Part shown: piece by piece, positions 1 to 54,376 of the stretch
How the letters are laid out: the number at the start of each line of letters is the position of its first letter
Numbering within the stretch: position 1 is the stretch's first letter
Position numbers and translations under genes: made by a program
Notes under the pieces: generated by a model
What the model saw: the letters and a program-made list of their open reading frames with translations, nothing else
Databases searched by the model: none
What the model was told of the DNA's origin: nothing
IMG/VR virus record: IMGVR_UViG_3300031977_001585
Location: 1 to 64,000 of that record
Reading direction: 5' to 3' (one strand)
Source of the DNA: a virus
DNA: 64,000 nucleotides

Positions 1-3000
1 CGTGTTGATGTGCGAGTGTACTCACCAGTAAAGTTACCAGCAAAGTCACCAGCAAAACCACGTGCATAGTTACCTACGAAGTCACCAGCAAAACCACGAG
101 AGTAGTTACCGATGAAGTTACCAGCAAAGTTAGTTACTCGATCTCTAGTGAAGTCACCAACGTAGTTGGTTACACGAGTACGAGCATATGCTGAACTACG
201 GCTTCTGGTTGAAGTACGTGTGCTGTTACGTGTGTATTCACCAATGAAGTTACCTGCGAAGTTTGTTACACGGTTACGTGTGAAGTCACCAACATAGTTA
301 GTGATACGAGTACGTGCATAAGCAGAGTAACGTACACGAGTTGAAGTACGGACACTGTTACGAGTGTAGTTGCCTACAAAGTTACCAGCAAAGTTTGTAA
401 CACGGTTACGAGTAAAGTCACCAACGTAGTTAGTGATGCGAGTACGTGCGTATGCTGAATAACGAGTACGGGTTGAAGTGCGAGTAGATGTACGTGCGTA
501 GTTTCCTACGTAATCACCTGTGTAGTAACCAGTACGTACGTAGTTTCCTACGAAGTCACCTGCATAGTAACCAGTACGTGTGTAGTAACCAGTGTTGGTT
601 GACGTACGGGTTGACGTACGAGCATAGTTGCCTTCATAAGAAGCACCACGAGTACGTGCATAGTTACCTTCATAAGAAGCACCACGAGTACGTGAGTAGT
701 CACCGACATATGATGCGGCACGAGTACGTGTGTATGCTACTGTACCTACGTAATCACCAGCAAAGTTACCAACGTAGTTTCCGGTGTAGGATGCACCACG
801 ACTACGAGTGTATGCTACGTTACGGGTATAGTTGGTTGCACGAGTACGTTGATAGTTTACGGTACCTACGTAATCACCAGCAAAGTTACCTACGTAATCA
901 CCAGTATAAGTTGCGGCACGGTTACGAGTATAGTTTTGTGACCACTCACCAATGAAGTCACCTGTGAAGTCACCTGCGTAGTTTGCAGTACCGACGAAGT
1001 TACCAGTATAACTTGAAGTTCCTGTCCATGATAGACCATATCTCCATTCCGCACCATATGATACACGGAATGTACCTCTTGAATACCATACACCGTTCTT
1101 CTGTACAGAAGTTGTACCTGAAGTACCAGAAGCAAATCCAACATATACTCCGTCAGCATAGAGCATGATACCTTGCATCTCGTAGTCATATACCCACTGG
1201 GTGACGTTTGCAACGTATACGTCAGTGTTGGTCTGAGTGCCAGTAGAGGTACGTGTTGACGTAACTGAACGAGAATAGTTGACAATTGAGTTACGAGTCG
1301 AGTTAGTAGCACCACCACGTGAGTAGTCACCTGTATAGGATGCCGCACGACTACGAGTGTAGTTAGTTGCACGAGTACGAGTAAAGTTGGTCTGACGTGT
1401 GTAATCACCTAAGAAGTTACCAGTGTATCCTACTGTACGAGAGTAGTTACCAGTATAGGTGGCTGCACGTGTACGAGTATAATCTGTTGCACGAGTACGA
1501 GTAAAGTTGGTCTGACGTGTGTAGTTACCGACATACGATGCCGCACGAGTACGTGCATAGTTACCGACATACGATGCCGCACGGTTACGTGCATAGTTAC
1601 CAACATACGATGCGGCACGAGTACGTGCATAGTTACCTACGAAGTCACCTGCGTAGTATAAAGTACGAGTATATGCTAGTACACGAGTCGATGTACGTGT
1701 TGACGTACGAGTGTAATCTAGTACACGAGTCGACGTACGTACAGAGGTACGTGCGTAGTTGCCTACAAAGTCACCTGCGTAGTTGCCAGCAAACCCACGT
1801 GCGTAGTTACCAACAAAATCTCCGGTAAACGTAGTAGCATAGTTGCCTACGAAATCACCAGCAAAGTTAGTTACACGATCACGGGTATAGTTACCAGTAA
1901 AGTCACCTGTATAGTTTCCTGTGAATCCACGTGCGTAGTTACCTACGAAGTCACCAGTAAAGGTTGTCGCATAGTTACCTACGAAGTCTCCCGCAAAGTT
2001 AGTGACACGATCACGAGCATAGTTACCAATGAAGTCACCAGCAAAGTTGCCAGCAAACGCACGTGCATAGTTACCAACAAAATCTCCAACGAAATCACGG
2101 GCATAGTTGCCAATGAAGTTGCCAGCATAGTTGGTTACACGATCACGAGTATATGCTGAGTAACGAGTACGTGTTGACGTACGAGCATAAGCACTGTAAC
2201 GAGTACGAGTAGATGTACGTGTTGATACACGAGCATAGTTACCGACATAGTTGCCAGCAAACCCACGTGAGTAGTTGCCTACAAAGTTACGTGCATAGTT
2301 ACCTTGGAAACTGCGTGAGTAGTTACCAACGAAGTTACCAGCAAAGTTTGTAACACGGTTACGAGTATATGATGATACACGAACACGTGAGTAGATGCCA
2401 GCAAAGTTAGTGACACGATCACGAGTGTAGTTAGTTACACGAGTGCGGACGTAGTTATCAGAATAAGCAGAAACACGAGTACGAGTGTAAGTGCCTGCGT
2501 ATGCTGAAACACGGTTACGTGAATAAGTACCTGCGTATGCAGAGACACGGTTACGTGAGTAAGTTCCTGCATAGGTACCAGTATAAGACGACACACGAGT
2601 ACGAGTGTAGTTAGCAGAGTATGCAGAACTACGTGTACGTGAGTATGTGCCTGAGTAAGATGATACACGACCACGAGTGTACGAAGATGCACGGCTGCGT
2701 GAGAATGTACCAGTAAAGTTTGTTACACGGTTACGAGTGTATGTTGATACACGTGCTCGTGTATAAGTTCCAGCAAAGTATCCAGTGAATGCTGTTAGAC
2801 GTGTACGTGAGTAAGTCGACGTACGAGTCCTTGAGTAAACACCTGAGTATGCAGAACCACGAGTACGAGAATAGTTACCCTCGAAACCACGTGTGTAGTT
2901 TCCTGTGAAGTCACGTGAGTATGTGCCCGTGTAATCACCTACGAAAGTACGTGAGAAAGTATTGACACTATTACGTGTATATGAGGAAACACGATTTCTT

Positions 3001-3845
3001 GAGTAAGCAGAAACACGAGTTGTTACATACGATGATGGGCGTGTGCGAGTATAACTCTGATCCACGATCGTACGACGTGTGTTTGTTGCTGAACCCTTTG
3101 CCATCCAAGTACCTGCAGATGTAGGTACACCTTGTGTATCAGAACGTAATTGATACGAACCGATAGCACCAGCAGTGGCACGTAGAGTTTTTGCACGTTG
3201 ACCAAGTGTGTACTTGATCTGTGCGTCTGTCATTTCTTTAAATCCGTCGACAGAAGAACCATCATAGACAGTTGCAACTGGACGAACAACATCATAAGTA
3301 GTTGCACTTAATGATGTCTTTTTCCAAATATGGTAGTTTACAGTAGTGCCGTCTCCATGAGTATCTGTAAATACATTCTCAATATGGATACTCCAATCTA
3401 AGCCTGGAGATGTTTGAGATAGACGGAAGGATCCTTGATATTCTAATCCCGCAACGTCTTTCATGACACGTTCTGTAAGTAGGTCTAAGTCCCCGTCGTT
3501 CATTTCATAGAAACCAGGGTTAGGCCCCACGTCATAGTATCCTACTGGACGGGCAAAATCTGCACCGGACTCATCTGCTGATCCACCCACTTGCTTAAGA
3601 GCAGTAGTTGTTGTGGTACCAGTGATCTGAGATGCAGGGTGTGTCCCTGCTGGTTCGTTGTAGTACGTATCTACGAAGGAACCAATATTCACACTTCCGG
3701 TTAAACTGATATTACCGATATCACTAGCAGTGGCCTCTGCTAATGCTTCTCCAACCTTAATGGCAAGATATGCTTCTTCTGCCGGTTGGAATTCCTGTAG
3801 GTCACCATCATTAATGATTTTTAGTGGTATACTAGATGCTGACAC
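1..3845 (-). CDS. Giant tetrapeptide-repeat tail-fibre/structural protein, C-terminus beyond window
   Basis: The reading frame is open from a stop at 3861-3863 to the left edge, giving at least 1281 codons. I place the start at a GTG at 3845, preceded by AAGAGAG. Residues 1 to about 262 are non-repetitive and resemble N-terminal regions of marine T4-like structural proteins. From about 263 onward the protein is a strict four-residue repeat, [FYRS]-x-[GRST]-[NDTAS]; typical runs are FAGN-FVGN-YTRN and YTRT-RVSS-YTRN-RVTN. A non-repeat insert of roughly 75 residues (about 865-940) interrupts the array; it is rich in Tyr and Gly and has a YxRG motif. A T4 late promoter lies upstream. Its position beside tail-fibre chaperone genes suggests a virion fibre, but the function is inferred. 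The next gene rightward (4404-8807) is a paralogue. Confidence 0.85.
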   Translation of the reverse strand, partial: MSASSIPLKIINDGDLQEFQPAEEAYLAIKVGEALAEATASDIGNISLTGSVNIGSFVDTYYNEPAGTHPASQITGTTTTTALKQVGGSADESGADFARPVGYYDVGPNPGFYEMNDGDLDLLTERVMKDVAGLEYQGSFRLSQTSPGLDWSIHIENVFTDTHGDGTTVNYHIWKKTSLSATTYDVVRPVATVYDGSSVDGFKEMTDAQIKYTLGQRAKTLRATAGAIGSYQLRSDTQGVPTSAGTWMAKGSATNTRRTIVDQSYTRTRPSSYVTTRVSAYSRNRVSSYTRNSVNTFSRTFVGDYTGTYSRDFTGNYTRGFEGNYSRTRGSAYSGVYSRTRTSTYSRTRLTAFTGYFAGTYTRARVSTYTRNRVTNFTGTFSRSRASSYTRGRVSSYSGTYSRTRSSAYSANYTRTRVSSYTGTYAGTYSRNRVSAYAGTYSRNRVSAYAGTYTRTRVSAYSDNYVRTRVTNYTRDRVTNFAGIYSRVRVSSYTRNRVTNFAGNFVGNYSRSFQGNYARNFVGNYSRGFAGNYVGNYARVSTRTSTRTRYSAYARTSTRTRYSAYTRDRVTNYAGNFIGNYARDFVGDFVGNYARAFAGNFAGDFIGNYARDRVTNFAGDFVGNYATTFTGDFVGNYARGFTGNYTGDFTGNYTRDRVTNFAGDFVGNYATTFTGDFVGNYARGFAGNYAGDFVGNYARTSVRTSTRVLDYTRTSTRTSTRVLAYTRTLYYAGDFVGNYARTRAASYVGNYARNRAASYVGNYARTRAASYVGNYTRQTNFTRTRATDYTRTRAATYTGNYSRTVGYTGNFLGDYTRQTNFTRTRATNYTRSRAASYTGDYSRGGATNSTRNSIVNYSRSVTSTRTSTGTQTNTDVYVANVTQWVYDYEMQGIMLYADGVYVGFASGTSGTTSVQKNGVWYSRGTFRVSYGAEWRYGLSWTGTSSYTGNFVGTANYAGDFTGDFIGEWSQNYTRNRAATYTGDYVGNFAGDYVGTVNYQRTRATNYTRNVAYTRSRGASYTGNYVGNFAGDYVGTVAYTRTRAASYVGDYSRTRGASYEGNYARTRGASYEGNYARTSTRTSTNTGYYTRTGYYAGDFVGNYVRTGYYTGDYVGNYARTSTRTSTRTRYSAYARTRITNYVGDFTRNRVTNFAGNFVGNYTRNSVRTSTRVRYSAYARTRITNYVGDFTRNRVTNFAGNFIGEYTRNSTRTSTRSRSSAYARTRVTNYVGDFTRDRVTNFAGNFIGNYSRGFAGDFVGNYARGFAGDFAGNFTGEYTRTST

Positions 3846-3922: not shown

Positions 3923-4402
3923 TTAACTTTTTTGAGGCCAGACCACTTCCTGTACAGAAGTAACACCATCTAGGTGGTCGGTGATATCTCTTAACTGCTG
4001 CCGGTAGTTTCTCCATGACTGCAACTCTTGCTCAGATAGAGGAGCATCAAGTGCTTGAGTCCAGTCACAAGCAGTGAGTAATTGGTCTCGAATCATACGA
4101 ACATCTCTAACCAAATCTTCGTGGTTCCATGTCCAATCTAAAGACTCGAAGTTCCACGTTGCATGCTTGTTTGGTGGTAACCCTGTGAATTTAAAGGTTT
4201 TTGTTGATGCATCAAACCAGTGATAATCCATGAAGTAGGACAAGTCACTGCATCCTGCAGGAAGACTATCCTCATGAACATAGATAATACGTTGAGAACC
4301 ATCGGGAGTAAACCCCTCTGAATCAATCTTCACTTGCGGAAGAGAGATCCTTTCTAGTCTTCCTGTCTGCGTATTAGCATATACAACATAGCATAATTTC
4401 AT
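3923..4402 (-). CDS. Tail-fibre assembly chaperone-like protein (Phage_tail_APC type)
   Basis: 159 aa. The C-terminal 60 residues have the layout of phage tail assembly chaperones of the PF16778 type: RDQLLTACDWTQ, then a helical YRQQLRDIT segment, ending VVWPQK. The N-terminal half is unrelated to that of its paralogue at 9217-9621, as expected if it contacts a different fibre. It sits between the two tetrapeptide-repeat genes, 2 nt after the 1467-aa protein's stop. Probable role: folding or attachment of one of these fibres. The family match is by eye; the client is inferred. Confidence 0.75.
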   Translation of the reverse strand: MKLCYVVYANTQTGRLERISLPQVKIDSEGFTPDGSQRIIYVHEDSLPAGCSDLSYFMDYHWFDASTKTFKFTGLPPNKHATWNFESLDWTWNHEDLVRDVRMIRDQLLTACDWTQALDAPLSEQELQSWRNYRQQLRDITDHLDGVTSVQEVVWPQKS

Positions 4403-4403
4403 T

Positions 4404-7400
4404 TTAACTTCTCGTTACTTGATAATAGGTCATAATAGGTCCACCAGAGTAGTCTGTCTCGATGTAATTTCCACGAGTATATGTGAATCCACCAGTTGTT
4501 ATTGTAGTATCATTTTCACTCTGACCTGATAGTGGTTCAGAAAAATACACTTCAGTCCCATTCCATCGAATCTGTATCGTCACAAGATCTTCACCTTCTG
4601 GACTAGGAACAAGTGATACTCTCCACCAAGTGCCAGAGTTAGACGTATCTGTCGTCTGAGGTGGTGGTTCTGAGTTGACATCTGACGAAGTAGGTGCTAC
4701 CGAAACCGGAGTAGTTACCAAATAACTACCTGCTGTGATCCATTGACTACCATTGAACACTTTTATATCATAGGTATATGATGTCCCATTAGGTGGGATC
4801 TCATTTACCGTGAAGTTATTTAGACCACTTGTTACTGTAACATCTGTTAAAATGAGAGCATTATCACGATAAACTCTCAACGACACAGGAGTAGACCCCT
4901 CTGTCAAATGTGTTACTGACAGTTGATGTGTTGTGTCATTTTCCGGATGCACTATTCGATTAGAGGTTGTGGCAAAAATACCCGAATCATTATCATATAA
5001 CGTGAACTCTTTCTCCGCAAGAACCTCAACGTTGCTACTACCCATTGGTTCGTTGATACTGGAAGTGTCATTCCCAGTACGTAACTGTGCCCTGAAGGTT
5101 TCTCCTTGCCATCCCATTTCTCCAACACCGGCTGATACTGTACTGGTTCGTGTATAGTTGCCTATGAACTCACCCGTATAATACGTCTTGGCACCATCGG
5201 AGTATGAAGAGGTTCTAGTTCTTATAAAGTCTCTAGTTGAGGTTCTAGTAGAATTCCTTGTCGATGGTACATAATTCGCATAGTTCCCCAAGTAACTTGG
5301 TGTCCTCACATAACTGCGTGAATCTGTAAAGTCACGTGTATAGTTACCTGTAAAGTTACCAGTGTACTCTCCAATAAAGGACAACACCCTACTGAAAGCA
5401 GTGACTCTTATATCGGTTCGAGAACTAACACGTGTGTAGTAAGAGATCGGATATCTACTATATGAGTCTACAATGTTGCGACTATAATTACCTTCGTAGT
5501 TACCTTCATACGATGGAGATCTGCTATACGTTCCTGTATAGTCACCTATGAAATCTCCAACAAATGATCTCTGATAGTTGCCCTCAAAATTACCACCGAA
5601 GTCTCGATTATAGTTTCCGGTGAATGTACCAGCATAGGAGAACACGGACTCTCGTACACGAGTTGACGTACGACTAGACGTTCGTTGATAGTTAACCGCA
5701 TGATTCTCTACACTACCTTCTATGATGACTTGTCGAGTAGACGCACCTACATAATCTCCCGTATAGATGCGAGTATAAATTCCAGTTCTCTCATAGTTAC
5801 CCGTATACTGACCAGCAAAGTTTCTGTTATAAGTTCCTGTGTATTCCGATACAAATCCTCTTTCATAATTGCCTAAGAAACCTGGTGTGTATGTGCTAAC
5901 TCGGTTTTTAAGATATGTGCTGTATCTGGTAACAACCCTTCCACTTGTCTTGGTTGATATTCGAGAGTTCTCTCCCACGAAATTACGTGTATAATATCCA
6001 AATATCTCGACCATACCACCCGCATCGGGATCGAATATAAATCGACTAGAAACTTTTGTGACGTTGCCGACAAAGGATCGAGTGTAATTTCCAAAATAAC
6101 TTCTACTATAGTCCCCATTATAAGCACGACCATAATTACCAATATAGGTAAGAGTACCTGTATATGAAGAGACTCTATTTCTAGTAGAACTACCTCCCAC
6201 CGATCTAATCCGTTGATAGTTACCTATAAAGTCTCGGGTATAATTGCCTACAAAGTTTTGACTAGCAGTTGGTGTGCTTGTACTGGTGTTTTCTGCTATT
6301 TTATAATCTTCAACAAATGTAGTGGCAGTTTGAAGTGTCCCTCTATGATAATATTTACCTCCTACAGGACCGACAATGGATGATACTCTTGCATCAGCCA
6401 TACTATCGTATGCACTACTGGTGTAAACGAGTGTTCCATTGTAGTATAATTGAATAAAGTATTCGTACGTAATATCTCCTCTACCGTCACCAAATCCACC
6501 TTCTACGAATCGAGCAAGTCTCCATACGTATTGAGGATTACCATTAGTGATAGAATATAAGAACGGATCAGACCCACTACCACTGACTCTGGTTCGTTCG
6601 TAGGTAGAGGTTCTAGTTCTCTCGTAGTTGCCTTCGTACGAAGCATTTCCCGTAAAATTACCCACAAACGTACGAGAGTAAGTTGAGGTTCTTGAGTAGT
6701 TCCCCTCAAAGTTGCGAGAGTAATTACCGACAAACGTACGAGAGTATCCCCCTTCATATGACTCGACACGTGTACGTGTATAGTCTACCAGATTTGCGTA
6801 CGAAGACGTTCTGGTTCGAGCAAACTCACCAGTATAAGTAATCGTTCTGGTGTAGTTACCTACGAAACCACGTTGATAGTTACCAACAAACGTTCGGGTG
6901 CTCTCTGTCCCACCCCTAGTTCGAGTGTATGCGGAGATTCGAGTTCGAGCATAAGTTCCGTCGTATGTGGACAGTCTTGCTCTCGTTGAGATTCTTTGAT
7001 ACGGCACTTGTCGGGTAGATGTTATCGAGTATCGATAACGGCCATAATTTACCTGTGGAACGTAATCCCCTATGAAGTTGCCCAGAAAATTTCCAGTGTA
7101 GGTTAGAGTTCGAGTAAAGTCGAATGGTCTTTGTCTTTGATAAGACGATACTCGTGTTCGACTTGATACTCGATTATACGCAGAAAGTCTCGTGCGTGTA
7201 GACGTACGAGTAAATGTCTTCGACGTTGACAACTCTGGTATTCGAGTTCTAGTGTAATTACCAGCGTAGTTAGACGGACGGTTTCGTTGATACGTCTCGG
7301 TATATGTACCTGGTCTATAGGTTATCTCAAGTCTACCTTCTGGGTCATTCGGTATAGGATTCCAGTTGTAGTAGATGGTGCCCGTATAAAATCTTGAGTA

Positions 7401-8807
7401 GTTACCCTCGAATGATAACCCGTCTGAGTAATTACGTTCGAATGTACTCGTACGTGTACTATTCCTTGTCGACAGTCGAGTGTATAGACCTTCATAGTCA
7501 ACTGTTCTTACATAGTCACCCGTGTACCCTATTGTCCTTGTGCTTGTTCTAGTATAAGTGCTAAGACGGGTATAGTCTCCGGTAAAGTCTCCGGTATAGT
7601 ACCCTATTGTATTACCAATAAAGTCACGGTTGAATCCTGTTGCAATATCAACGATTGACTGTCTGGTAAACGACCCTGTTCTTTCAATGGTTACATTATA
7701 TGATGTAGTGTCATTATAAGAGACAAACGTTGCTGTATGCGCAGACCCCGTAAATGTAGAAAAGTTTGCAGTAAAGTCTTTCTGTGCTACACCGTCTGAC
7801 CCTGAGAGTCTGAATAATTTAACGTGATAATTGTTAGGTTCGTTAGTCGTTGCTATTAGACTAATCGATTGTCCTTCAATTATATTATCGACACTAGAGA
7901 ATTGCAATGCTCCCTGTAGACTAGATTCCTCTTCGTTTTGTTGACTAGTTCCTGAAGAAGACCCTTCTAGTTTGGCCGCAAACAATGCGTTCAGGTTCCT
8001 GAAGTTTTGATATATTTCTTGTAGACCTGACTCATCATAGTTAATTAAGATAGAGTCGTAATACCGAACCTGTGTAGTGCTGAACCCCAGTCCGTACAGA
8101 TTAGTTGTAATTTGGTTGTCTTGAAAAGCACCACTAATAGCACCGGATAAAGACCATTCAATATTAATATAGCATCCAGCACTATGATTTAAAAACGGGT
8201 TGCCTAAGACGGTCCAGTTCTGACTTGGTGGTAGATAGGTTTCAATATTAAAAATATTATTGGTGATAAGTGCTCTGGAATCAAAAGCAATTCTACCCTG
8301 TGATGTCTTTATCTGTAGACCATATTCATCGTCGTTTAACGCAGATGAATTTTCTATAATCTCTGCTGTCTCACGGACAATAAAGTAGTCCATGTCCACA
8401 TCCCAATCAGCAGTCACATAGGTCTGGTTTAAATATCCACCATTGGTAAGTCCACGACCTTTGAATCTGTAGGTATTGCTTAGTGCATCACTTGCCGTTC
8501 GTGCTAGGAAAAACACTTCAGGGTTTGAGATAGTAACGTCTTGCGTAGTCCCATTAAAATTGGTAATTGCGTCGGGTACAACTATTGGACCAAATCCGGT
8601 TCCAGTTAAATCTGGATTGTATCCGGTTGCGGTTGGACGTTTTACAAAGACAAAGTCTTCTTTGGTGAGTTCGGAATCTAAGGTAAACGAATGCCCACGA
8701 CCTGCTGCTACAACTCTGTAGTTAAGAAGATCGAGAGTAGTATCGGCAATAATGAAATTGTTACCGTTGCCGTCATTGCCTTGTACCTTTAGACCGTAGG
8801 TCATCAT
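4404..8807 (-). CDS. Giant tetrapeptide-repeat tail-fibre protein, 1467 aa
   Basis: Residues 1 to about 385 are a non-repeat N-terminal part starting M(M)TYGLKVQG, similar in style to the SYGIQLYG start of its neighbour at 8804-9208. Residues about 389-1219 are the same four-residue repeat as in the gene at 1-3845 (for example YTGD-FTGD-YTRL-STYT and FEGN-YQRS-FVGD). A non-repeat insert lies at about 739-845. A C-terminal domain (about 1220-1467) ends in a module with WNGTEVYFSE, YTRGNY and YYQV. The start is one of two adjacent ATGs (8807 or 8804), overlapping the upstream stop. No catalytic motif is visible. Likely a virion fibre or adhesin. Confidence 0.88.
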   Translation of the reverse strand: MMTYGLKVQGNDGNGNNFIIADTTLDLLNYRVVAAGRGHSFTLDSELTKEDFVFVKRPTATGYNPDLTGTGFGPIVVPDAITNFNGTTQDVTISNPEVFFLARTASDALSNTYRFKGRGLTNGGYLNQTYVTADWDVDMDYFIVRETAEIIENSSALNDDEYGLQIKTSQGRIAFDSRALITNNIFNIETYLPPSQNWTVLGNPFLNHSAGCYINIEWSLSGAISGAFQDNQITTNLYGLGFSTTQVRYYDSILINYDESGLQEIYQNFRNLNALFAAKLEGSSSGTSQQNEEESSLQGALQFSSVDNIIEGQSISLIATTNEPNNYHVKLFRLSGSDGVAQKDFTANFSTFTGSAHTATFVSYNDTTSYNVTIERTGSFTRQSIVDIATGFNRDFIGNTIGYYTGDFTGDYTRLSTYTRTSTRTIGYTGDYVRTVDYEGLYTRLSTRNSTRTSTFERNYSDGLSFEGNYSRFYTGTIYYNWNPIPNDPEGRLEITYRPGTYTETYQRNRPSNYAGNYTRTRIPELSTSKTFTRTSTRTRLSAYNRVSSRTRVSSYQRQRPFDFTRTLTYTGNFLGNFIGDYVPQVNYGRYRYSITSTRQVPYQRISTRARLSTYDGTYARTRISAYTRTRGGTESTRTFVGNYQRGFVGNYTRTITYTGEFARTRTSSYANLVDYTRTRVESYEGGYSRTFVGNYSRNFEGNYSRTSTYSRTFVGNFTGNASYEGNYERTRTSTYERTRVSGSGSDPFLYSITNGNPQYVWRLARFVEGGFGDGRGDITYEYFIQLYYNGTLVYTSSAYDSMADARVSSIVGPVGGKYYHRGTLQTATTFVEDYKIAENTSTSTPTASQNFVGNYTRDFIGNYQRIRSVGGSSTRNRVSSYTGTLTYIGNYGRAYNGDYSRSYFGNYTRSFVGNVTKVSSRFIFDPDAGGMVEIFGYYTRNFVGENSRISTKTSGRVVTRYSTYLKNRVSTYTPGFLGNYERGFVSEYTGTYNRNFAGQYTGNYERTGIYTRIYTGDYVGASTRQVIIEGSVENHAVNYQRTSSRTSTRVRESVFSYAGTFTGNYNRDFGGNFEGNYQRSFVGDFIGDYTGTYSRSPSYEGNYEGNYSRNIVDSYSRYPISYYTRVSSRTDIRVTAFSRVLSFIGEYTGNFTGNYTRDFTDSRSYVRTPSYLGNYANYVPSTRNSTRTSTRDFIRTRTSSYSDGAKTYYTGEFIGNYTRTSTVSAGVGEMGWQGETFRAQLRTGNDTSSINEPMGSSNVEVLAEKEFTLYDNDSGIFATTSNRIVHPENDTTHQLSVTHLTEGSTPVSLRVYRDNALILTDVTVTSGLNNFTVNEIPPNGTSYTYDIKVFNGSQWITAGSYLVTTPVSVAPTSSDVNSEPPPQTTDTSNSGTWWRVSLVPSPEGEDLVTIQIRWNGTEVYFSEPLSGQSENDTTITTGGFTYTRGNYIETDYSGGPIMTYYQVTRS

Positions 8808-9216: not shown

Positions 9217-9621
9217 CTATGGTTTAGGTGGCCAAACAACTGACTCCAAATCAGAATAGTCTTGTGTGATATCACGAAGTGTTTGTCTGTACACGCTCCA
9301 TTCTTCTCGTTGACCGTCACTCAGACCATTGTCATCTAACCTAGTCCAGTCACATTCCTGAAGTTTAGTATTACGTGCCTGACGCAATTCTTCTATTTCG
9401 ATCTGTGCGATAACATCATCTGGATAAGGTGCTACAATCTGTGCTACAATATCATCAGATTCAATGTATTTGTTCAGAACAATTGCTCGTGTAGCATCAT
9501 ACTCTTCTTGCCACGGAATAAAAAGTTTCCATGCTTCTGGTGATGGTACCACATTATTGGGAAAGGATTGAGGAGAACCCACTGGAATACCGTTATGTAC
9601 TTTTATAAACTGTATGCTCAT
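9217..9621 (-). CDS. Tail-fibre assembly chaperone-like protein (paralogue)
   Basis: 134 aa. The C-terminal half (RNTKLQECDWTRLDDNGLS, YRQTLRDIT, VVWPPKP) is clearly paralogous to the C-terminus of the protein at 3923-4402 and fits the PF16778-type tail assembly chaperones. The N-terminal half (MSIQFIKVHNG, then SPEAWKLF) differs. It lies between the modular tip protein (9634-12615) and the first tetrapeptide fibre, so its client is probably one of these. Confidence 0.78.
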   Translation of the reverse strand: MSIQFIKVHNGIPVGSPQSFPNNVVPSPEAWKLFIPWQEEYDATRAIVLNKYIESDDIVAQIVAPYPDDVIAQIEIEELRQARNTKLQECDWTRLDDNGLSDGQREEWSVYRQTLRDITQDYSDLESVVWPPKP

Positions 9622-9633
9622 TTTAATTTCCTA

Positions 9634-12615
9634 TTAGGGTTCTATGCCACTGCCATTAAGATTGATGTCAAAAGTAACTGCGTCCCCGTTGGCATCCTCA
9701 AATCGACCAGTGTCCGGATTCCAAGAGAAAACACTATCATACAAAGTAGCAGTAGTCTCACCAGCAACCGACGCAACAGTATTGACAAACTCATTATATA
9801 TAGCAGTTGCATCAAGAGCACTCGTTCCACCATCGTCAGAACCACTAACGACCTGATTCGCAGACGATGTTGGATCATAAGCAGCTGCCGTTGAATCTGT
9901 TGTGCTTGCTATTAGTCCCGATACAGTTCCTGACCAAGAGTTAACACCCGTTCTTGACTTGTCCGTATTATTCTGACCATTGTCACTCATCATCTTGATT
10001 TCAATTTTGAATCGACTGTCGTAAAGGGTACCTACTGCGAACGATCCGTTTACAGGAATAATCGTCCACGAGTTACCACCACCACCAGTTTTATGTCTTT
10101 GAGTCTGTATGGTTGTCCATGTTGATGGCCAACTATTAGTGTCCTGTGTATTCGCATCTTTTTGTTGGAATAATAGTTTTACGTATGCTGTATCTGTTGC
10201 AAATAGACCAGAAAATGCCATACTAATAGTCGGTATATGCCTGAATACATTTCTTTCTGTTGTTCCTTGAGCATCAATAACTCGGTCGACAACGTTTCTT
10301 GGTAGTTCAATAGTAGTCAATTCTTGATATCCCGCAGAAGATGGTCCCCAAGTTCTGGTACCACTTCCGGAGAATGCAGTAATTGTATTAATATTTCCTT
10401 CAAGACTACCGACCGTTAGTGATCCTGTTCTGATAGAATCAGAAAGAATAGTGCCGGTAGTGATTTTACCACCATCGATGCTGGTGATGTTGCCAATCTC
10501 ATCTGTGCCCAAGGCACCTTCAATGTTCTGGAAAGTGACAAGACCATTGAAGTTGTAATTCCTAAACGGAGCACCAATCTGTATATTTGAACCTGTTGCT
10601 TCATCACCATCGACGGCATCTGCTACGACACGATATCGGCATGCCCAAATGGATCCTGTTAAATTGGTATCTTCCGATGGTGATAGTGACCATCCGTTAG
10701 AGTTCGTTCCAGCAGCAGGATTTAGACCTTCGAAGTATCCCATGCCTACATTGGAGTTGTTTTCTGATAGTGATGTGAATACAAACTTCGTTGCTGTTGG
10801 TGCACCCGGATTAGCACTTGACTCACCGTGGTAGTATAGATATCCTGAATCGATCAGACCTAGACCAGTAATGTTGATATCGGATGGATCGACTACTCCT
10901 GGCGGACCTTGTTCACCAGGGACACTTGAAAGAATCGGTGCCGTAAACGTTAGACTGTTGTCGATACCATTTTGACCCCTCAGACTTGCTACGGTTGTAG
11001 TCTCCCACAGATCTTGTGGGTTGTTTGGATCTGGAGATGCGACAGGCACTTCATACCATGAACCACTAGTTCCAGCAACCAGATCGGTGTCGTCATTCTG
11101 ATTCGATTGTTTCACGAATCGGTTAGAGTCAAAATTATAGATCACACTGTTCGGTGTAGGGATAGCAGATGGTGGAATGATGTTACCATCAACATCAAGT
11201 TCACGTGCCTTACGTGTGTATAGAGAGGCACGGTATGTCGATATAGTCTCGACGATATATGGTACAGGATCACTCCAACCAGGAGGATCTACTGCAACGA
11301 CTGTACCTGTATCTCCTTCGACAACGAATGGATAGGTAGAAGACCATACGTCTTTACCCTCTTCAACAAGGCCGTTAGGAGATGCAGACCAACCAGTAGG
11401 AACATCGTCCATCTGGTTAGTTGTGAAATTGTATGAACCCCCAGTAGGTTTAGTTGGTGGTTCTATGTTACCGTTGGAATCATATGTACGAGTCTTGGCA
11501 AAGTAAACTGCTTTCTCTGCGGCAGACTTACCATTTAATCCAGTAGAGGCAATTACAGGAGCACTCCAGTTAATGGTGCTGTCTACTAAATCACCATCAC
11601 CGTTTGCAGATACACCTAGTGTTGAGGCAATACCTGTAGAAACGTATAGTTCACCTACACCCTCTTCTGGTCCGACGTTCCATCCAGTAGGAGCAGTGTA
11701 TTCTTTAGTGGTGAAGTTGAATGAACCACCCGATGGTGCAGTCGAAATAGAAGACTCTGATCTCTTGTATGCATACAGTTGAGCAATTGACTCTCCACTA
11801 TTAACGTCTACAGGTGGTCCACCAATTAGATAAGGAGTTGACCATTCACCACCACCAATAAGATTGGTCTCTGACTGTAGATCGATGAATCGATAGTTAC
11901 ATGCGTAGATGTCTTTGTCACCGTCTGGTGCTGGGATTTCATCGTACCAAGTTTCAGTAAGAGCACCACCAGACGAATCTGTTGTTGGTACCGTAAGCAC
12001 TCCACTGGTGAAGTCATACGAACCACCGAAAGGAGTTGTCGGAGAACTCGAAGCACGAGTATAGATTGTTGCAGTGAATGTTGAGGTTCCTGCAGGACCA
12101 CTACCATCACCACCACCCGTAGAATCTGCTAGGTTAGTCCACTTAACACCGTCCCACTTTAGAACCTGACCCGTAGAAACACTGTTGATTTCAACGTCAG
12201 TCAGATCATTAAGAGCACCTACTTCACCGTGCTTTGCAAGTTTTACCCACTGACTATCATGCGCATAATATGCGAACCCAGTAGAATGGACGTGTGCAAA
12301 CATACCGTGGTAAGTACCAGCATCAATAGCATTTAATTCATTTTCATCTTGAAAGTGGTTGCTGTATAGGATCTTGTTACTGCCAAGGTCAAGTGTGGTA
12401 GACGCAAGAAATGTACGAATTTCTTCTTGAGTGAATCCGGTATCATCATTTAGTTCGTTGATCTTTGCAAGAATAAGAGCATTCACTTCTTCTACAGAAA
12501 GACCACCCACTCCTTCTTCTAAGAGGTGAAAGTTCTCATTGATCTTATCGACAGCCTCATTGATCTTATCTGCTAAGTCAATGGTCTGGACTGTTGTAAT
12601 ATCATCGTGTGCCAT
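9634..12615 (-). CDS. Modular tail-tip/receptor-binding protein, 993 aa
   Basis: Five tandem modules of about 80-100 aa (roughly residues 180-680) share the pattern [LI]YxRs...PtxPxGGsynFts, GW...P and WSxPxli. Such modules are common in tip and fibre proteins related to lambda J-like attachment proteins. The region around 690-760 (ISSIDGGKI-type, ITTGTI, LTVGSL) is typical of the end of tip proteins. No enzyme motif is seen. The start overlaps the 3' end of the gene at 12602-12841. Likely part of the adsorption apparatus. Confidence 0.8.
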   Translation of the reverse strand: MAHDDITTVQTIDLADKINEAVDKINENFHLLEEGVGGLSVEEVNALILAKINELNDDTGFTQEEIRTFLASTTLDLGSNKILYSNHFQDENELNAIDAGTYHGMFAHVHSTGFAYYAHDSQWVKLAKHGEVGALNDLTDVEINSVSTGQVLKWDGVKWTNLADSTGGGDGSGPAGTSTFTATIYTRASSSPTTPFGGSYDFTSGVLTVPTTDSSGGALTETWYDEIPAPDGDKDIYACNYRFIDLQSETNLIGGGEWSTPYLIGGPPVDVNSGESIAQLYAYKRSESSISTAPSGGSFNFTTKEYTAPTGWNVGPEEGVGELYVSTGIASTLGVSANGDGDLVDSTINWSAPVIASTGLNGKSAAEKAVYFAKTRTYDSNGNIEPPTKPTGGSYNFTTNQMDDVPTGWSASPNGLVEEGKDVWSSTYPFVVEGDTGTVVAVDPPGWSDPVPYIVETISTYRASLYTRKARELDVDGNIIPPSAIPTPNSVIYNFDSNRFVKQSNQNDDTDLVAGTSGSWYEVPVASPDPNNPQDLWETTTVASLRGQNGIDNSLTFTAPILSSVPGEQGPPGVVDPSDINITGLGLIDSGYLYYHGESSANPGAPTATKFVFTSLSENNSNVGMGYFEGLNPAAGTNSNGWSLSPSEDTNLTGSIWACRYRVVADAVDGDEATGSNIQIGAPFRNYNFNGLVTFQNIEGALGTDEIGNITSIDGGKITTGTILSDSIRTGSLTVGSLEGNINTITAFSGSGTRTWGPSSAGYQELTTIELPRNVVDRVIDAQGTTERNVFRHIPTISMAFSGLFATDTAYVKLLFQQKDANTQDTNSWPSTWTTIQTQRHKTGGGGNSWTIIPVNGSFAVGTLYDSRFKIEIKMMSDNGQNNTDKSRTGVNSWSGTVSGLIASTTDSTAAAYDPTSSANQVVSGSDDGGTSALDATAIYNEFVNTVASVAGETTATLYDSVFSWNPDTGRFEDANGDAVTFDINLNGSGIEP

Positions 12616-19338: not shown

Positions 19339-21252
19339 TTACGATAATTTGCCAAGAATTACTCTTGGATTTCCGTCCGAATCGTTAATTGTTATGGTAT
19401 CATTGTCTAATACCATAGATGATAGATCTCCAGAAGCCTGACTAGTACTGTTCTGTACCGCACCTAAACTTATTGAATTACTTTCGATACGACCCCCGTT
19501 AATCACAGTCGATCCATTAGCACCGACCGATGTCGGATCAAGAATTGGGATACCGTCTCCACCGTTAGTTAATTCTAAGCTTCCAGCAGTGCTATTCGTG
19601 AACGACACAACACCGTTGAAACTAATCAATGACTGTACAGCACTACCTGTGTCTGTAGAAGTTGCCGCAACACCAGTGGAATCAACGAAAACGAGATCTG
19701 ACCAATAGACGGTCGTGGACGGTGATACTGCAACTGTCGGGGCAGACAAAGACCAATTCGTAGTATCGTCTAAAACGACAACACCCGTTGCCCAAGTAAT
19801 GGTGCCACTTGGTGCAGTAGTGCTTGTTGTACTATATGCACGGAAGGTTGAGTATCGACCTGCTGGAGTACCGTTACTTCCAACGAATGGAACATAAGTA
19901 GCAGAAAGAAGGGTATTTGGAAGATCACTGTCCTGAGTCGGTTTAGGTGCTGTCCATTCATAGAATGTAACAAACTTCTTCGTATCTAGAGTCAATGAAA
20001 TCTGATTCATAGCACTTGGATTTTGCACCGAAGAATATACAGGCATCACACCTTGTGCTGGTGGTGCGTTCGGAGTCTCACCTACGAACTTGATCCATGT
20101 ACCACTGATATCATTGATTGTTGGTTTAGTATCAGTCCACTCATAATACAGTACATATTCTTGTCCGGCCTGTCGGTCAAAGTTTTTATTAGTACCACTC
20201 GCATCGTCTGCGTAAACTACCAAGACACCTTCAGAAGTACCATTGTCACCGTCGGTGATATCAAAAGAGGTATCTCCGATTGTAACTGTAGTTACTCCGG
20301 TAGAAGCATTATAAGAAGTCGATACACCAGGTGGTTGTGCATTTTCACCACCAACACCGACAATCTGTGCGTCACCAAATTCAGAGGCCGCAATGATGTC
20401 TGTAGTCCCACGTGCAACGACAGATCCCTGAATGATCCAAAGATACTCACCATTCGTGATAGAAGGAGCACTCTGAGTCCATCCGTTAAAATCAGCACCG
20501 GACTCTGCAGTCAACAAACCACTAGAAAAGGTATGCTTGAAATCTCCCGACGGATCTGTTGGAGCACTTGACGCATCACTGTTTTTGTTGTATAGTTGTA
20601 CAACTGCAGTATTGTATCCGTCCAGTCCCGTTCCTGACAGAACGGTTGCGGCACTAAACTCACCTGCTGGGATGATGTCTGTACTGCCCGTGTTCGATGC
20701 AGTTGCTTGCTTGACCCAAACATAGTTACCTGGTGCAACTGTAGGTAAATCTTGAGACCACCCATTTAGAGTTCCACCTGACAAAGCACCTGTTTCGTAA
20801 GTGTAGGTAAAGTCCCCCGATGGGTTTCCAGTCGGTGCCGTAGTATTGCTTGTGCCTGGCTTGAATATGAAGACCGTCGCAACACTAGTTGCTGGGTCTG
20901 GTTGTGTCGGTTGGAAACCAACACGTGAAAGAACAACAGGACCGTTCCAATCATCGTTATCAAACGTTGCGGTAGATCCTACTGGTCCTTCTAGTGTGAT
21001 CGACACCATCCACAGTGCTTCCGAAAAGGAAAGACTGTCGGGTACGGTCGACCAGTTAGCAAAAGCAGTGGAGACACTGGCAGTCAGTACTCCACTTAAA
21101 AAGTTGTATTCAAAGTTCCCCTGTGGTACAGTTGGTGCACTAGCATCTGCACTAGTCTTATAAAAGTACTGCAGTGTTACTCGTGACGTGCCGTCTTGTA
21201 GATCTACAAGAGAGACAGAATCAGAAGCATATCGTGTCCATAATACCGACAT
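19339..21252 (-). CDS. Modular tail-tip/fibre protein, 637 aa
   Basis: At least four copies of the APTxPsGxFxxxFxSGxL...NGWsxxxPs...GxYlW module, the same module type as at 9634-12615. Residues about 20-290 hold three and another is near 460-520. A different YVLYYEWTDTKPT / FVTFYEWTAPKPT pair lies between. The C-terminus (VINGGRIESNSISLGAV, then DGNPRVILGKL) is typical of tip attachment proteins. Likely adsorption apparatus. Confidence 0.8.
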   Translation of the reverse strand: MSVLWTRYASDSVSLVDLQDGTSRVTLQYFYKTSADASAPTVPQGNFEYNFLSGVLTASVSTAFANWSTVPDSLSFSEALWMVSITLEGPVGSTATFDNDDWNGPVVLSRVGFQPTQPDPATSVATVFIFKPGTSNTTAPTGNPSGDFTYTYETGALSGGTLNGWSQDLPTVAPGNYVWVKQATASNTGSTDIIPAGEFSAATVLSGTGLDGYNTAVVQLYNKNSDASSAPTDPSGDFKHTFSSGLLTAESGADFNGWTQSAPSITNGEYLWIIQGSVVARGTTDIIAASEFGDAQIVGVGGENAQPPGVSTSYNASTGVTTVTIGDTSFDITDGDNGTSEGVLVVYADDASGTNKNFDRQAGQEYVLYYEWTDTKPTINDISGTWIKFVGETPNAPPAQGVMPVYSSVQNPSAMNQISLTLDTKKFVTFYEWTAPKPTQDSDLPNTLLSATYVPFVGSNGTPAGRYSTFRAYSTTSTTAPSGTITWATGVVVLDDTTNWSLSAPTVAVSPSTTVYWSDLVFVDSTGVAATSTDTGSAVQSLISFNGVVSFTNSTAGSLELTNGGDGIPILDPTSVGANGSTVINGGRIESNSISLGAVQNSTSQASGDLSSMVLDNDTITINDSDGNPRVILGKLS

Positions 21253-21268
21253 GGGGAACCCTTAATAA

Positions 21269-22441
21269 TTAAGATGTTGACTTAGTTACAGTGACATCAC
21301 AACGGATGCTGATTGGTGCAGATGTATCTGGCACAACGTCTGGACCTGCAGTAATCGCAGAGAAGTTGTTGTTGGTACCATCGGCAAAAACACCACCAGC
21401 TGTTACTACAGTAGAATCACTTGCTGAAGCGACTCGTACCGAAGATCCATCTCCGTATTCCCAACTGTACTTAATCTCGAAACCACCAACACCGTCAGTA
21501 ATCTCATTATCACCTTCACTCGTTGCATCTGTAACAACCGCAGTTAGTGTTACTGGAGTACCTGAGTTGTTACGGAATATGGTTGAACCACCAGAAGTTT
21601 CGATGTCTACCTTGATAGCACCACGACCAGCAAGCAGTTTAGCAACACTTACTACGTCTTGACCCTGATCACCAGAAACCTTCATAGTATATGAGAATGC
21701 AGAGTCACCTACGTTAGATGGAGCAATCTTGATCTGAGATCCTGTTGTCCAACCTTCGGTAGGAAGTGATCCGGTTGTTGTGAAACTATCTGATTGAGAT
21801 AGTCGATATCCAGCAATCTTTCCTGCTTCAGTACCTACAGTTGTGGCACTGAATGCTCCACCGTTTGTCTTAGTAGAGATTGCAACGTTAGTGGCAGTAC
21901 CAGTAACAACGAACTCGACGATTACATCGTTTTGATCAGATGCCAATACACCGTCTGCGTCTGCAAGGAATGTGTGGTCTGACTGGATAAGATTGATGAC
22001 CGTACTGTCCGCACCGTCACGTACAATAGTAACACTTAGTTCTAGGTCGATAGTGCCTGTGAACTTACCTGTGTTATATGCAACAGTAACGATTACTGTA
22101 CCACTACGCTTATACTCTGCGGCATCTGGTGCCACAATCGCATCACATGTGATAGTACCGTCTGCACCTTCTACGAAAGTGAACCCTGTTGCTTGTTGAA
22201 TATCATCAATAACAAACTCTCCATCACCCGCAGTTGCGTTTGATGAGTATGCTAATTCTGTTCCTCCAACATATGCTTGCACGTTAGTTTGAAAATCTGT
22301 ACGTGCAGCGTCTCCGACTTGACCTGTAGGACTACTGATAAAAGTATGGTTCGCATTGGTCAAGAAAGCAGATACCGCACTTTGACCGTCAATTACGTCG
22401 GTTAAGGTAACGGCCGCCGTGGCAGTTCTTACAATTGCCAT
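21269..22441 (-). CDS. Beta-rich tail-tip/fibre protein with Ig-like domains
   Basis: 390 aa. The first 110 residues (VTLTDVIDGQSA, NHTFISSPTGQVGD) match the Ig-like linker modules of tip proteins, and a diverged second copy starts near 150 (INLIQSDHTFLADADGVLA). Low Lys and rich in Thr/Val/Ala, as expected for an all-beta virion protein. It ends 16 nt before the next tip gene. Structural role inferred. Confidence 0.72.
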   Translation of the reverse strand: MAIVRTATAAVTLTDVIDGQSAVSAFLTNANHTFISSPTGQVGDAARTDFQTNVQAYVGGTELAYSSNATAGDGEFVIDDIQQATGFTFVEGADGTITCDAIVAPDAAEYKRSGTVIVTVAYNTGKFTGTIDLELSVTIVRDGADSTVINLIQSDHTFLADADGVLASDQNDVIVEFVVTGTATNVAISTKTNGGAFSATTVGTEAGKIAGYRLSQSDSFTTTGSLPTEGWTTGSQIKIAPSNVGDSAFSYTMKVSGDQGQDVVSVAKLLAGRGAIKVDIETSGGSTIFRNNSGTPVTLTAVVTDATSEGDNEITDGVGGFEIKYSWEYGDGSSVRVASASDSTVVTAGGVFADGTNNNFSAITAGPDVVPDTSAPISIRCDVTVTKSTS

Positions 22442-22443: not shown

Positions 22444-23220
22444 TTAACCCTCTTCTTTATCGTTAATAGTTAATTGAATTGGCAGTGTCCCAGAATTAGG
22501 AACTGCCTTTGCTTCGATGAAAATAGACTTCAGTTCACCATTACTAAACTCTTGCGCAGTTGATTCAGCCGGTATGCCAAAACCAATTGGACAAGTGCCG
22601 TCGTCTCCTACAGTAACAATAGTTCCGTCTATATGTGACACGTAACGTGTCGTCTTATTAATGCACACGGGTTTACCCCCCGATGTCCATTGATAATCAT
22701 AATCCCCGTATTGGTTTTCATCAATACCCAATCCGTTGATTGAAATTCGTGCTTGCAATTCGGTCTCACCCGAATCGTTTAAAAACACTGTTCCGTTCAC
22801 TGCCGTGATTGCGACGTTAAGATCCTCGTAACCACGATCGTAAATAAGTGCTGGAGCAGTCCACTCCCCCGGTAGAATAGTCTTCTGAGACACACCATCC
22901 ACGCGTGGTACAGATGTTTGAATAAGAAATACGTATCTTCCGTCTGTTGGAATGCTCAACTTCCATCCCTGTAGAGTTGGATCTTCTGGCATGGTAATGT
23001 CGTTGCCAGAGAAATCGTAAATCGTAGGTAGGGAAATATCTTCTGACTCGGGAAGAGTCGGTTCATTGAATGCTTTGTAGAGTTCTACTCGTAGACCACC
23101 ACTAGCAGAAAGACGGTACAGTTCTTCGAAGTTGTCGTTGACCTTTTCTGCGGTTGTGCGGAGTGTATCTCCGGTACCATCGTTACCTGCACCACCAGTG
23201 TTAATAATTTGTCTTGGCAT
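22444..23220 (-). CDS. Baseplate-anchored fibre protein
   Basis: 258 aa. The N-terminus (INTGGAGNDGTGDTLRTTAE, then KVNDNFEELY) is the typical baseplate-binding start of short fibre and collar proteins in T4-like phages. One copy of the LYKAFNEPTLP...GWKLSIP...W module follows (about 48-135). Two cysteines near 187-212 flank a VGDDGTC loop. It has its own late promoter at 23248-23255. Confidence 0.75.
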   Translation of the reverse strand: MPRQIINTGGAGNDGTGDTLRTTAEKVNDNFEELYRLSASGGLRVELYKAFNEPTLPESEDISLPTIYDFSGNDITMPEDPTLQGWKLSIPTDGRYVFLIQTSVPRVDGVSQKTILPGEWTAPALIYDRGYEDLNVAITAVNGTVFLNDSGETELQARISINGLGIDENQYGDYDYQWTSGGKPVCINKTTRYVSHIDGTIVTVGDDGTCPIGFGIPAESTAQEFSNGELKSIFIEAKAVPNSGTLPIQLTINDKEEG

Positions 23221-23247: not shown

Positions 23248-23255
23248 TATTTATA
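23248..23255 (-). promoter_or_regulatory. T4-type late promoter
   Basis: Exact TATAAATA overlapping the stop region of the upstream gene (stop at 23251). The expected start near 23242 leaves a 22-nt leader containing GAGAGA before the ATG at 23220. Confidence 0.8.
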
Positions 23256-25437
23256 CCTGATCTACCTCTGGATTTTGACCAGGAGGAGTATCTGGTTCCG
23301 TCGGTTCTGTAGACCCATCATCTGGTTCCGTCGGTCCTGTAGACCCACCCGCAATCTTAATAGGAATGACTTTGCTGAATGTGACGTTCACATTGTCAAA
23401 CCAAGAAGATACCGTAACCGACAGATCCTCTCCTCCAGTGACGGTACCTATGTTGGCAACATAGACTAACTCCGGTATTGTATTTTGTGTCCCGTCTTCG
23501 CGAAGGTCAATATAAACCGTACCTAATGGATTTTCTTGCAAACTCTTATCTACCCATCCGTCACCAAACTCTAGCACCAACTGTTGCCCTGCAAGAGAAC
23601 TACCCATAATTAAAAACTCAACACTCTCTGTTGATGGATCGAGTACTAATTCTTCGTCAGTAAATCCTTGCTGATTACTAGGGTATGGTATATTAGGTTT
23701 CGCAATGTGAAGGGCAAAGTGAGTAAATGCATCATCCGGATACTCATTCGCTGCACCTGGTGACATGCTAATCACAACGTTTGGATCTGTAAGATCTGTG
23801 CTAGGGTTAGCAATTCCAGAAAGATTAACGTCGGCAGTAATTGTGTGCTCAGACGTTGATACCTTCGATAAACCCTTCACCCTAGATTTAAATACGACCG
23901 TGGTCTCTAATGGTATTGACGGATCTGAATCAAGGTTAGTTTCTTCGACCGTACACTTAAACGACACTACTCCACTGCTTGTAATTGTTTCTCGTGTGTC
24001 ATTCAGTAGAACCGAAACGTTAGGGTTACTCTCACTGCTGTTGGATTCTATATTAAAGAATATTTCATAACTTTCACCAGCACCGACGGAACCATCTAAC
24101 CATCTACCAGAGGATAATATTCCAATACCATCACTACCTGACGATTTGACTGCGTAGGTTCCGTTGGGTGAATACTCAACGGTAACACTGGTTCTTCGTA
24201 CCAACTGGGTCATCCACGAACCAAGATTACCTGTGCCAGCAGTGTTTACAATAAGTTTACGACGACCACTTTCAGTTACAACAGTTAACGGGTCCGGCCA
24301 GATACCTGTTGGATATTCGGTTGGTTCGGTCGATGTAAATGGTAGATACATCTTAGGTTGTCTATCTGGAGAAACAAAACTACTTGTGCTAGGATACTCT
24401 ATGAACGAGTCTGGAGAGTTGATGAAATCATAGTATAGATTACCATCTACAAAATATGATGATCCATTTAACTGTCCACCAGAAAACGATTTTGGTACTA
24501 TAACAGGTTCAGACCATGATCCTGCTACGTATTCATACACTTCAGTTTTATACCCATCCGAAACAATTAACTGATCGGTACTTGCAGTGATGACCGGAAA
24601 TGGTTTATACTCTACAACCGTTCCTGCTTCAGGACCAAGACCTTCCGGTACTGATATAGGATAATTGCCACCAAGCACCGCACTCCTTTCATGTATCAAT
24701 TCTTTCATGGTACCATCACCAACGAACACATCAAGGGTCTCTTCTGCTTCTACTACAACCCCTGTCCCTAGGTTAGTAAGACCAGCAGTGATCATGCTCT
24801 CTACGTCATGTACCCAAACAGTAGGAATCCACGGGTCAGTGCCAGCATGAAACTCTGGGGCACTACTCCACTGTGTGTTTATAATCTTCTGCTTACCACC
24901 TATCGTTACTACCTGAGCGTTTTCTACACTAAATTCATAACGATATATGTTCGTTGGAATAATGAATGATAGGTTTGTGTACTCATATGTGATACCATAT
25001 TCGTTGGTATGTTCATATTTAAGATTATCCAAATTGTCTAAATCTAAAAATCCGAACGACCGACCATAATGAATCCAATCAGATCCTGTCCATTTACGAG
25101 TATATCCCGCAGGGAATACTAGCCATCGATCATCGACAACAAAAACATCTGAAACTAGGTTAGTAGCAGACTCAGTAGTAGAACCCCCTGCCATAAATCT
25201 GTATGTTGCCCAGTTTTCAATGTTTGGTAGGTACTGTAGTTCTTCTACCAGATTCCAGTTGCTGTCATATAACGTTATTGCGGCACCATATGGCAATTCA
25301 TTTTCTATCTGTGCCTCTGCAACAAAGTGCCCTTTAAGAGAATTGAATACAATGTTTCGTGTAGGAGTTGATACTACTTGAGAACCAAATAAACTTTTAG
25401 CATACATTCCACTTACTGCGTATGTCCCATCTGCCAT
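23251..25437 (-). CDS. Large beta-rich virion protein, probably fibre
   Basis: 728 aa with no enzyme motif I recognise. The N-terminal 250 residues are aromatic-rich. The region about 440-700 looks like two or three beta-sandwich domains. The C-terminus is a Pro/Thr/Glu-rich tail (TEPDDGSTEPTEPDTPP). It lies between the EP-repeat protein and the anchored fibre protein. Structural role inferred. Confidence 0.72.
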   Translation of the reverse strand: MADGTYAVSGMYAKSLFGSQVVSTPTRNIVFNSLKGHFVAEAQIENELPYGAAITLYDSNWNLVEELQYLPNIENWATYRFMAGGSTTESATNLVSDVFVVDDRWLVFPAGYTRKWTGSDWIHYGRSFGFLDLDNLDNLKYEHTNEYGITYEYTNLSFIIPTNIYRYEFSVENAQVVTIGGKQKIINTQWSSAPEFHAGTDPWIPTVWVHDVESMITAGLTNLGTGVVVEAEETLDVFVGDGTMKELIHERSAVLGGNYPISVPEGLGPEAGTVVEYKPFPVITASTDQLIVSDGYKTEVYEYVAGSWSEPVIVPKSFSGGQLNGSSYFVDGNLYYDFINSPDSFIEYPSTSSFVSPDRQPKMYLPFTSTEPTEYPTGIWPDPLTVVTESGRRKLIVNTAGTGNLGSWMTQLVRRTSVTVEYSPNGTYAVKSSGSDGIGILSSGRWLDGSVGAGESYEIFFNIESNSSESNPNVSVLLNDTRETITSSGVVSFKCTVEETNLDSDPSIPLETTVVFKSRVKGLSKVSTSEHTITADVNLSGIANPSTDLTDPNVVISMSPGAANEYPDDAFTHFALHIAKPNIPYPSNQQGFTDEELVLDPSTESVEFLIMGSSLAGQQLVLEFGDGWVDKSLQENPLGTVYIDLREDGTQNTIPELVYVANIGTVTGGEDLSVTVSSWFDNVNVTFSKVIPIKIAGGSTGPTEPDDGSTEPTEPDTPPGQNPEVDQV

Positions 25438-53009: not shown

Positions 53010-53010
53010 A

Positions 53011-54329: not shown

Positions 54330-54342
54330 ATAGTTTCCTTCA

Positions 54343-54376
54343 GACAAAAAAAAGACGGGACATGCCCGTCTTTCTA
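54343..54376 (-). terminator. Rho-independent terminator
   Basis: Nine-pair stem AAAGACGGG/CCCGTCTTT with 5-nt loop, then eight T on the minus strand. Ends the transcript of the sulfotransferase-like gene. Confidence 0.88.

Follow-up and report, generated by a model that had tools for sequence, protein, structure and literature searches.

The stretch of DNA analysed in this study (hereafter the window; 64,000 nucleotides, positions 1 to 64,000 of IMG/VR record IMGVR_UViG_3300031977_001585) opens at the first base of a 78,534-base record of an uncultured marine T4-like virus, and starts with an open reading frame (ORF) for a repetitive protein, here referred to as protein A. Protein A is, with a probability of roughly 0.8, a long tail fibre in which a single chain forms a giant antiparallel hairpin. 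In this proposal, for which we infer the fold, the oligomeric state and the receptor role, an N-terminal domain at the base would attach the protein to the baseplate, approximately 605 residues would run outward from there, a small hypervariable globular module would cap the tip, and approximately 605 residues would return in exact register, ending in a conserved C-terminus at the base. The arms would be beta strands paired side by side, several hairpins would probably bundle into the shaft, and the tip module could be exchanged or diversified while the shaft stays. As an extended ribbon, 605 residues would span about 200 nm, which coiling would shorten. The antiparallel beta hairpin is suggested by the alternation of residues in dyads, by partners that face alike, by a constant register (i+j, the summed positions of paired residues) and by matched length changes. 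The first-pass annotation of this DNA had proposed a novel solenoid or trimeric shaft; the evidence instead favours a fold-back chain with complementary arms, be it trimeric or not.

The ORF (3..3845, minus strand, GTG start, 1281 amino acids) is open at the contig end, and is cut there since the window begins with the first base of the record. Judging from relatives and from its own register, it is short of about 290 C-terminal residues: complete relatives extend that far past the cut and terminate in a conserved GNYxGxTI...YTLYVR, and the register of i+j = 1811 predicts a full-length protein of about 1571 residues. A second tetrad-rich fibre protein, protein B, is encoded close by, and within the virus record the repeat is restricted to these two proteins.

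Dyad repeat and mirrored register

Relatives were collected in two scans: the first, of viral contigs, yielded 50 loci, the majority of which encode complete proteins of approximately 1100-2060 amino acids, and the second, with the C-terminal shaft, yielded 106 loci, of which 80 were kept. Residues 1-264 of protein A form a distinct globular domain outside the tetrad array, with a predicted local distance difference test (pLDDT) score from AlphaFold2 of approximately 70-90 over most of residues 1-225. This domain, the presumed anchor, is common to relatives beginning with MSASSIPLKI and is 66% identical in phage C48C1.

The four-residue period and the matching 12-bp DNA period that had been described for the array are both present. 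Autocorrelation of the translated repeat region reaches 0.175 at lag 4 versus 0.097 ± 0.009 in shuffles, and it rises to 0.239 at lag 8 and 0.253 at lag 12 (same shuffles), while odd lags fall under expectation; in the shaft DNA, peaks stand at 12, 24 and 36 bases (0.38, 0.47 and 0.46; mean 0.25). The composition described for positions 1 and 3 was recovered as well, with Y/F/R/S at 90% of first and G/R/S/T at 87% of third positions in one fixed frame. What did not stand is that the tetrad phase is kept throughout: it shifts by two residues several times within the array, and the insert at ~870-945 displaces it by an odd number. The dyad alternation, on the other hand, is unbroken over residues 228-878 and then, shifted, over 881-1281; within residues 265-869, the first dyad residue is Y/F/R/G/S/T in 95% and the second T/A/V/N/S/D in 92%. 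The strict unit of the shaft is thus the dyad, not the tetrad. A hidden 12-residue solenoid coil was considered as well and dropped, since in the family of protein A (family A) lags 24, 28, 44 and 56 are in excess along with lag 12, and the family of protein B (family B) shows no such excess; for the same reason, no coil length is claimed.

The two-residue beat is also visible in the way the shaft changes among relatives. Odd sites have an entropy of 0.43 bits, with an identity of 90% or more in 66% of columns, versus 1.28 bits and 7% for even sites; the N-terminal domain has no such odd/even difference. Of 338 gaps in the array, 297 have an even length (0 mod 4 in 148, 2 mod 4 in 149) and 41 an odd one. 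Between the outgoing arm of protein A and that of its closest relative, L038, odd sites are 96% and even sites 78% identical, and 30% of the identical odd-site residues are encoded by a different codon; this conservation despite codon change indicates that selection acts on the protein and that the DNA is no frozen repeat. A low-complexity, Arg/Tyr-rich disordered adhesive, with repeats spread by DNA slippage and a pattern without a fold, would agree with the shaft composition (596 residues with a net charge of +66, no Lys and one Pro), with the DNA periods of 12, 24 and 36 bases and with the very low pLDDT of the shaft. Such a protein is hardly credible given that every second residue is under strong purifying selection, and in view of the exact register, complementarity and paired substitutions described below.

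In most family A members, the alternation is interrupted at a corresponding place by a globular-looking module of approximately 70-90 residues, and this module lies at the centre of a mirror. The two arms are of equal length in 24 members: from the base, taken as the first tetrad, to the module centre there are 431-759 residues, and as many from there to the conserved C-terminal anchor (r = 0.994, slope 0.993, mean difference -0.1 residue, standard deviation 7.6). Mutual information of mirrored residues is highest at the base-to-base register, with 0.91 versus ~0.33 at other registers for odd sites and 0.39 versus ~0.15 for even sites. A parameter-free scan that scores Tyr opposite Tyr alone, over approximately 1000 antiparallel registers per protein, finds the base-to-base register (within 2) in 28 of 32 relatives, and in 23 of 25 distant proteins it places the C-terminal anchor opposite the point where the N-terminal domain ends. 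One distant subfamily has a plain Gly-rich turn (ATNYAGGGKGGNAYNYTG) at its predicted tip in place of the module, as a hairpin requires.

For protein A itself, the register is i+j = 1811 (0-based), at which 23 Tyr:Tyr pairs are observed versus 4.9 expected and the returning arm pairs with outgoing-arm residues ~532-866. The centre of this register is residue 906, inside the module, and local segments agree on 1811 from residue 545 on. When the order of units in one arm was shuffled 300 times, no shuffle reached the observed Tyr:Tyr count in any of 10 proteins, and a parallel alignment of the arms scored worse in all 10. Insertions and deletions (indels) preserve the register between arms, and most reference pairs hold it in relatives of very different length, e.g., 373 of 403 in L030, which is 275 residues shorter. 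In the C48C1 homologue, i+j is 2662 around a module at 1292-1363 and shifts to 2977 past an inserted domain, a step of 315 residues.

Several observations weigh against the single-chain hairpin. AlphaFold2 models, which covered the N-terminal 600 and the last 450 residues of L038 as separate pieces and never both arms together, have shaft pLDDT values of approximately 23-27 and lend no structural support; Foldseek searches with these piece models, in which the shaft is without confidence, gave no significant match, and models and searches are both regarded as uninformative. The distant members L061 (30% identity), L126 and L128 are without a clear register, and that of C48C1 is present only piecewise, around inserted domains. 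As the relatives are not independent, pooled counts overstate the number of events. In protein B, the hairpin signal is weaker and less regular than in A, and the residue code described below is followed weakly: gapped antiparallel scores lie above those of eight shuffles in WIN_B, L016, L024 and L038, and not clearly so in L036, L041 and L046, the antiparallel paths centre near the module where a module was placed, and no register was seen in protein B with a matrix trained on the base. Finally, sequence alone fits intrachain and interchain pairing alike. Phage fibres are usually trimers, and the same i+j register would also arise if the outgoing arm of one chain paired with the returning arm of a neighbour in a domain-swapped oligomer. 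This arrangement is considered unlikely, though sequence is otherwise neutral towards it, as an intrachain hairpin accounts more simply for the short members whose tip is a Gly-rich turn.

Residue pairing across the arms

Of the Tyr residues in the outgoing arm, 71% face another Tyr when the arms are set in the true register, versus 27-52% at neighbouring multiples of four and none at ±2. Between Tyr:Tyr pairs, YxRxRxSx stands opposite YxRxFxGx in 381 of 479 three-letter words (279+102), whereas like never stands opposite like (RRS:RRS 0, RFG:RFG 0); in the distant set, RRS lies opposite RFG in 88+72 of 294 words, with one like-with-like case. Further pairings are YxRxRxTx with YxGxFxGx, and YxGx with itself. 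The conserved face favours Y:Y, R:G, R:F, S:R, T:G and G:G and disfavours R:R, F:G, Y:R and Y:G; the other face favours T:V, A:N, N:V and N:T and disfavours N:N and V:V. Double changes at paired odd sites were observed 103 times versus 32.4 expected.

The FxGN-type and YxRT/RVSS-type blocks noted in the first-pass annotation do exist, and are here reread as complementary partners in opposite arms of one chain. The apparent period of four would be explained by bulky pairs (Y:Y, R:F) alternating with slim ones (R:G, S:R, G:G). It appears rather likely that the side chains form a code for a two-stranded antiparallel beta ribbon with hundreds of residues in each arm, in which the complementary YxRxRxSx and YxRxFxGx and the self-complementary YxGx would fix the pairing, permit lengthening only where it is matched in both arms, and leave the receptor-binding tip exchangeable. 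Unit types in the fibre shaft would then set the register much as complementary bases do in a nucleic-acid stem. We know of no comparable residue-pair code in another fibre.

The pairing also bears on whether each arm could instead form a beta-solenoid of its own, or contribute to an interdigitated trimeric beta-helix like that of gp5, so that the mirror would be due merely to two such rods packed antiparallel to each other. The C-terminal triple-stranded beta-helix of T4 gp5 has a VxGxxxxx octapeptide repeat and winds three chains about one axis (PMC4576200). This phage needle shares a strict even-numbered repeat and in/out alternation with protein A, and VxGN resembles FxGN; unlike protein A, its repeat has eight residues and no mirror register. 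The [VL]TGN tetrads of a cyanophage fibre protein align weakly with the gp5 repeat in PDB entries such as 3a1m and 4jj2 (E 0.004-0.02), the low-confidence model of the C-terminal arm draws strands every 12 residues, and family A has the lag-12 excess given above. The weak match comes from the cyanophage VTGN stretch only, however, and a profile of the real tetrad shaft matched neither the gp5 beta-helix nor any other PDB entry. Moreover, a fixed coil length would forbid the freely tolerated dipeptide indels (149 gaps of 2 mod 4 beside 148 of 0 mod 4), and two packed rods would not need a complementarity that is exact to the residue on both faces and extends over hundreds of positions. Such rods are considered improbable, and the paired arms of one hairpin remain the preferred explanation.

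The module at the centre of the mirror

The central module changes much faster than its surroundings. Across 37 pairs of relatives (>80% identity over the 300 upstream shaft residues), it is 41% identical on average where the flanking shaft averages 87% and 88%, and module identity is below 50% in 25 pairs. The modules share a framework of one Trp and GGxxYxRG; module borders were placed by eye, and the register tests are independent of them. Searches with the module gave no significant hit in Pfam or PHROG and no convincing relative in the PDB. A diversity-generating retroelement was rejected as the source of module variation: there is no reverse transcriptase (RVT_1) in six records, all possibly incomplete, and the module differs over its whole length.

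Its place at the tip and its strong variation suggest that the module is likely the receptor-binding part of the fibre. That it is a structural tip or spacer, with receptor binding located in protein B or another fibre, is a doubtful but real alternative: some distant members carry just a short turn at the tip, and protein B holds two copies of the module. On the other hand, in fibres that are otherwise near-identical no other part changes nearly as fast as the module, as host recognition predicts.

Relatives, comparable systems and gene neighbourhood

Among 50,697 deposited phage records, the N-terminal domain of protein A is shared by C48C1 alone (OQ984149; Kyanoviridae, 156 kb), and the distant members lead only to C48C1 as well, bar short composition-like matches. 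The C48C1 protein (WJE88074.1, 3347 amino acids, annotated as hypothetical protein; L009, 12273-22316) is a true homologue, having the N-terminal domain, a module at the tip and a visible code; it is unlike protein A in that further globular domains are inserted in its returning arm. Cellular genome contigs scanned with the N-terminal part gave no relative. The earlier placement of protein A outside described repeat families agrees with profile searches, which gave no Pfam, NCBIfam, PHROG or PDB match; comparing the sequences of the entire protein and of its N-terminal domain, and profiles of shaft and module, with the PDB likewise gave nothing convincing. A match in Enterococcus phage Riverwalk (L011, 3001-3341), in an unannotated gap with a tetrad-like translation, was discarded as probably due to chance composition. 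In the open-licence literature, no tetrapeptide-repeat phage fibre, none of the peptide motifs and no fold-back fibre was found.

The streptococcal antigen I/II stalk (SpaP, P1) consists of a chain that runs out and back and is topped by a variable domain (PMC7732690). With antiparallel arms and a variable central tip domain, it is the nearest layout to that of protein A, for which the layout is read from sequence only. The two arms of antigen I/II are unlike each other, an alpha-helix and a polyproline helix, and the protein is anchored in the cell wall. In contrast, the arms of the phage protein draw on the same alternating alphabet and follow a residue-pair code, and an alanine-rich and proline-rich arm pair is absent from its shaft, which has one Pro in 596 residues. 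A structural protein of Synechococcus phage S-RIM2 resembles protein A in its [VL]TG[ND] tetrads, where Gly takes the third and Asn/Asp the fourth place, and in belonging to a T4-like virion; its array differs in spanning only approximately 120 residues, in the lack of an Arg/Tyr/Phe code and in an Mtd_N N-terminal domain. The S-RIM2 tetrad stretch lies at ~7980-8350 (L010). Pentapeptide repeats are odd-numbered and form a quadrilateral solenoid; protein A likewise has a short strict repeat but differs by its even beat and mirrored arms, and neither a five-residue period nor a Pfam match to this family was found in it. CryoSeek glycofibrils are reported as natural filaments of linear tetrapeptide repeats; TLP-4 (9ikm) and perhaps OCM3 (9ufe) presumably belong to them. 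The OCM3 stretch is PSGQ-like, and protein A differs from it in its single shaft Pro and its two paired arms.

If the proposal is true, the fibre architecture of protein A, one chain with arms in exact register, would be unprecedented among the phage shafts known to us, and its side-chain complementarity could be read straight from sequence. It would represent a new class of even-repeat protein and a rule-based scaffold for protein design, the mirror centre would pinpoint receptor-binding modules in uncultured marine phages, and the way in which very long beta fibres keep their register during folding would become a testable question.

The identification as a tail fibre, already made in the first-pass annotation, is borne out by the surroundings of the gene (Table 1), where T4-type baseplate wedge genes, a fibre connector and tail-fibre assembly chaperones are found. 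T4-type baseplate wedge, hub and tail proteins are encoded upstream in the same direction as A, and of 38 loci examined, 35 have a Phage_tail_APC homologue upstream of A, 32 of them no more than 400 bases away; its product would serve as the assembly chaperone of fibre A. Together, the N-terminal domain, the baseplate genes and the adjacent chaperone support the classification of protein A as a putative tail fibre of a T4-like phage; no family membership beyond this is claimed.

Table 1. Fibre-related features in the window.
Feature	Positions	Strand	Remarks
Protein A, N-terminal domain (residues 1-264)	3054..3845	-	beta-beta-alpha units, GTG start
Protein A, proposed outgoing shaft arm (residues 265-869)	1239..3053	-	dyad alternation, tetrad and octad units
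Protein A, hypervariable module at predicted tip (residues ~870-945)	1011..1238	-	hairpin centre by antiparallel register
Protein A, proposed returning shaft arm (residues 946-1281)	3..1010	-	cut at contig end
Tail-fibre assembly chaperone (Phage_tail_APC), directly upstream of A	3923..4402	-	PF16778 E=5.7e-16; phrog_4912 tail fiber assembly
Tetrad-rich fibre protein B (1467 aa, own N-terminal domain)	4404..8807	-	same kind of array as A
Protein B, mid-chain module copy (residues ~746-842)	6282..6572	-	aligns with A modules, W and GGxxYxRG
Protein B, C-terminal module copy (residues ~1390-1467)	4404..4640	-	aligned with A modules
Second tail-fibre assembly chaperone (Phage_tail_APC)	9217..9621	-	PF16778 E=2.3e-16
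Tail fibre-like protein, upstream in cluster	9634..12615	-	phrog_9729 tail fiber protein E=1.9e-20
Fibre-connector-like protein	22444-23220	-	tail-fibre cluster, same direction as A

Three further minus-strand ORFs of the fibre cluster (19339-21252, 21269-22441 and 23251-25437) gave no PHROG match at E 0.001. Elsewhere in the window, an ORF at 55414-56406 (minus strand), in a region with other metabolic-looking genes, carries CNYSCSMCPQ near its start, a CxxxCxxC pattern that we take to be typical of radical S-adenosylmethionine enzymes. By eye, the ORF at 58117-59637 (minus strand) is carbamoyltransferase-like, and 50980-54347 (minus strand) holds a cluster of small glycosyltransferase-like genes; these genes possibly serve in modification of the host surface or of DNA.

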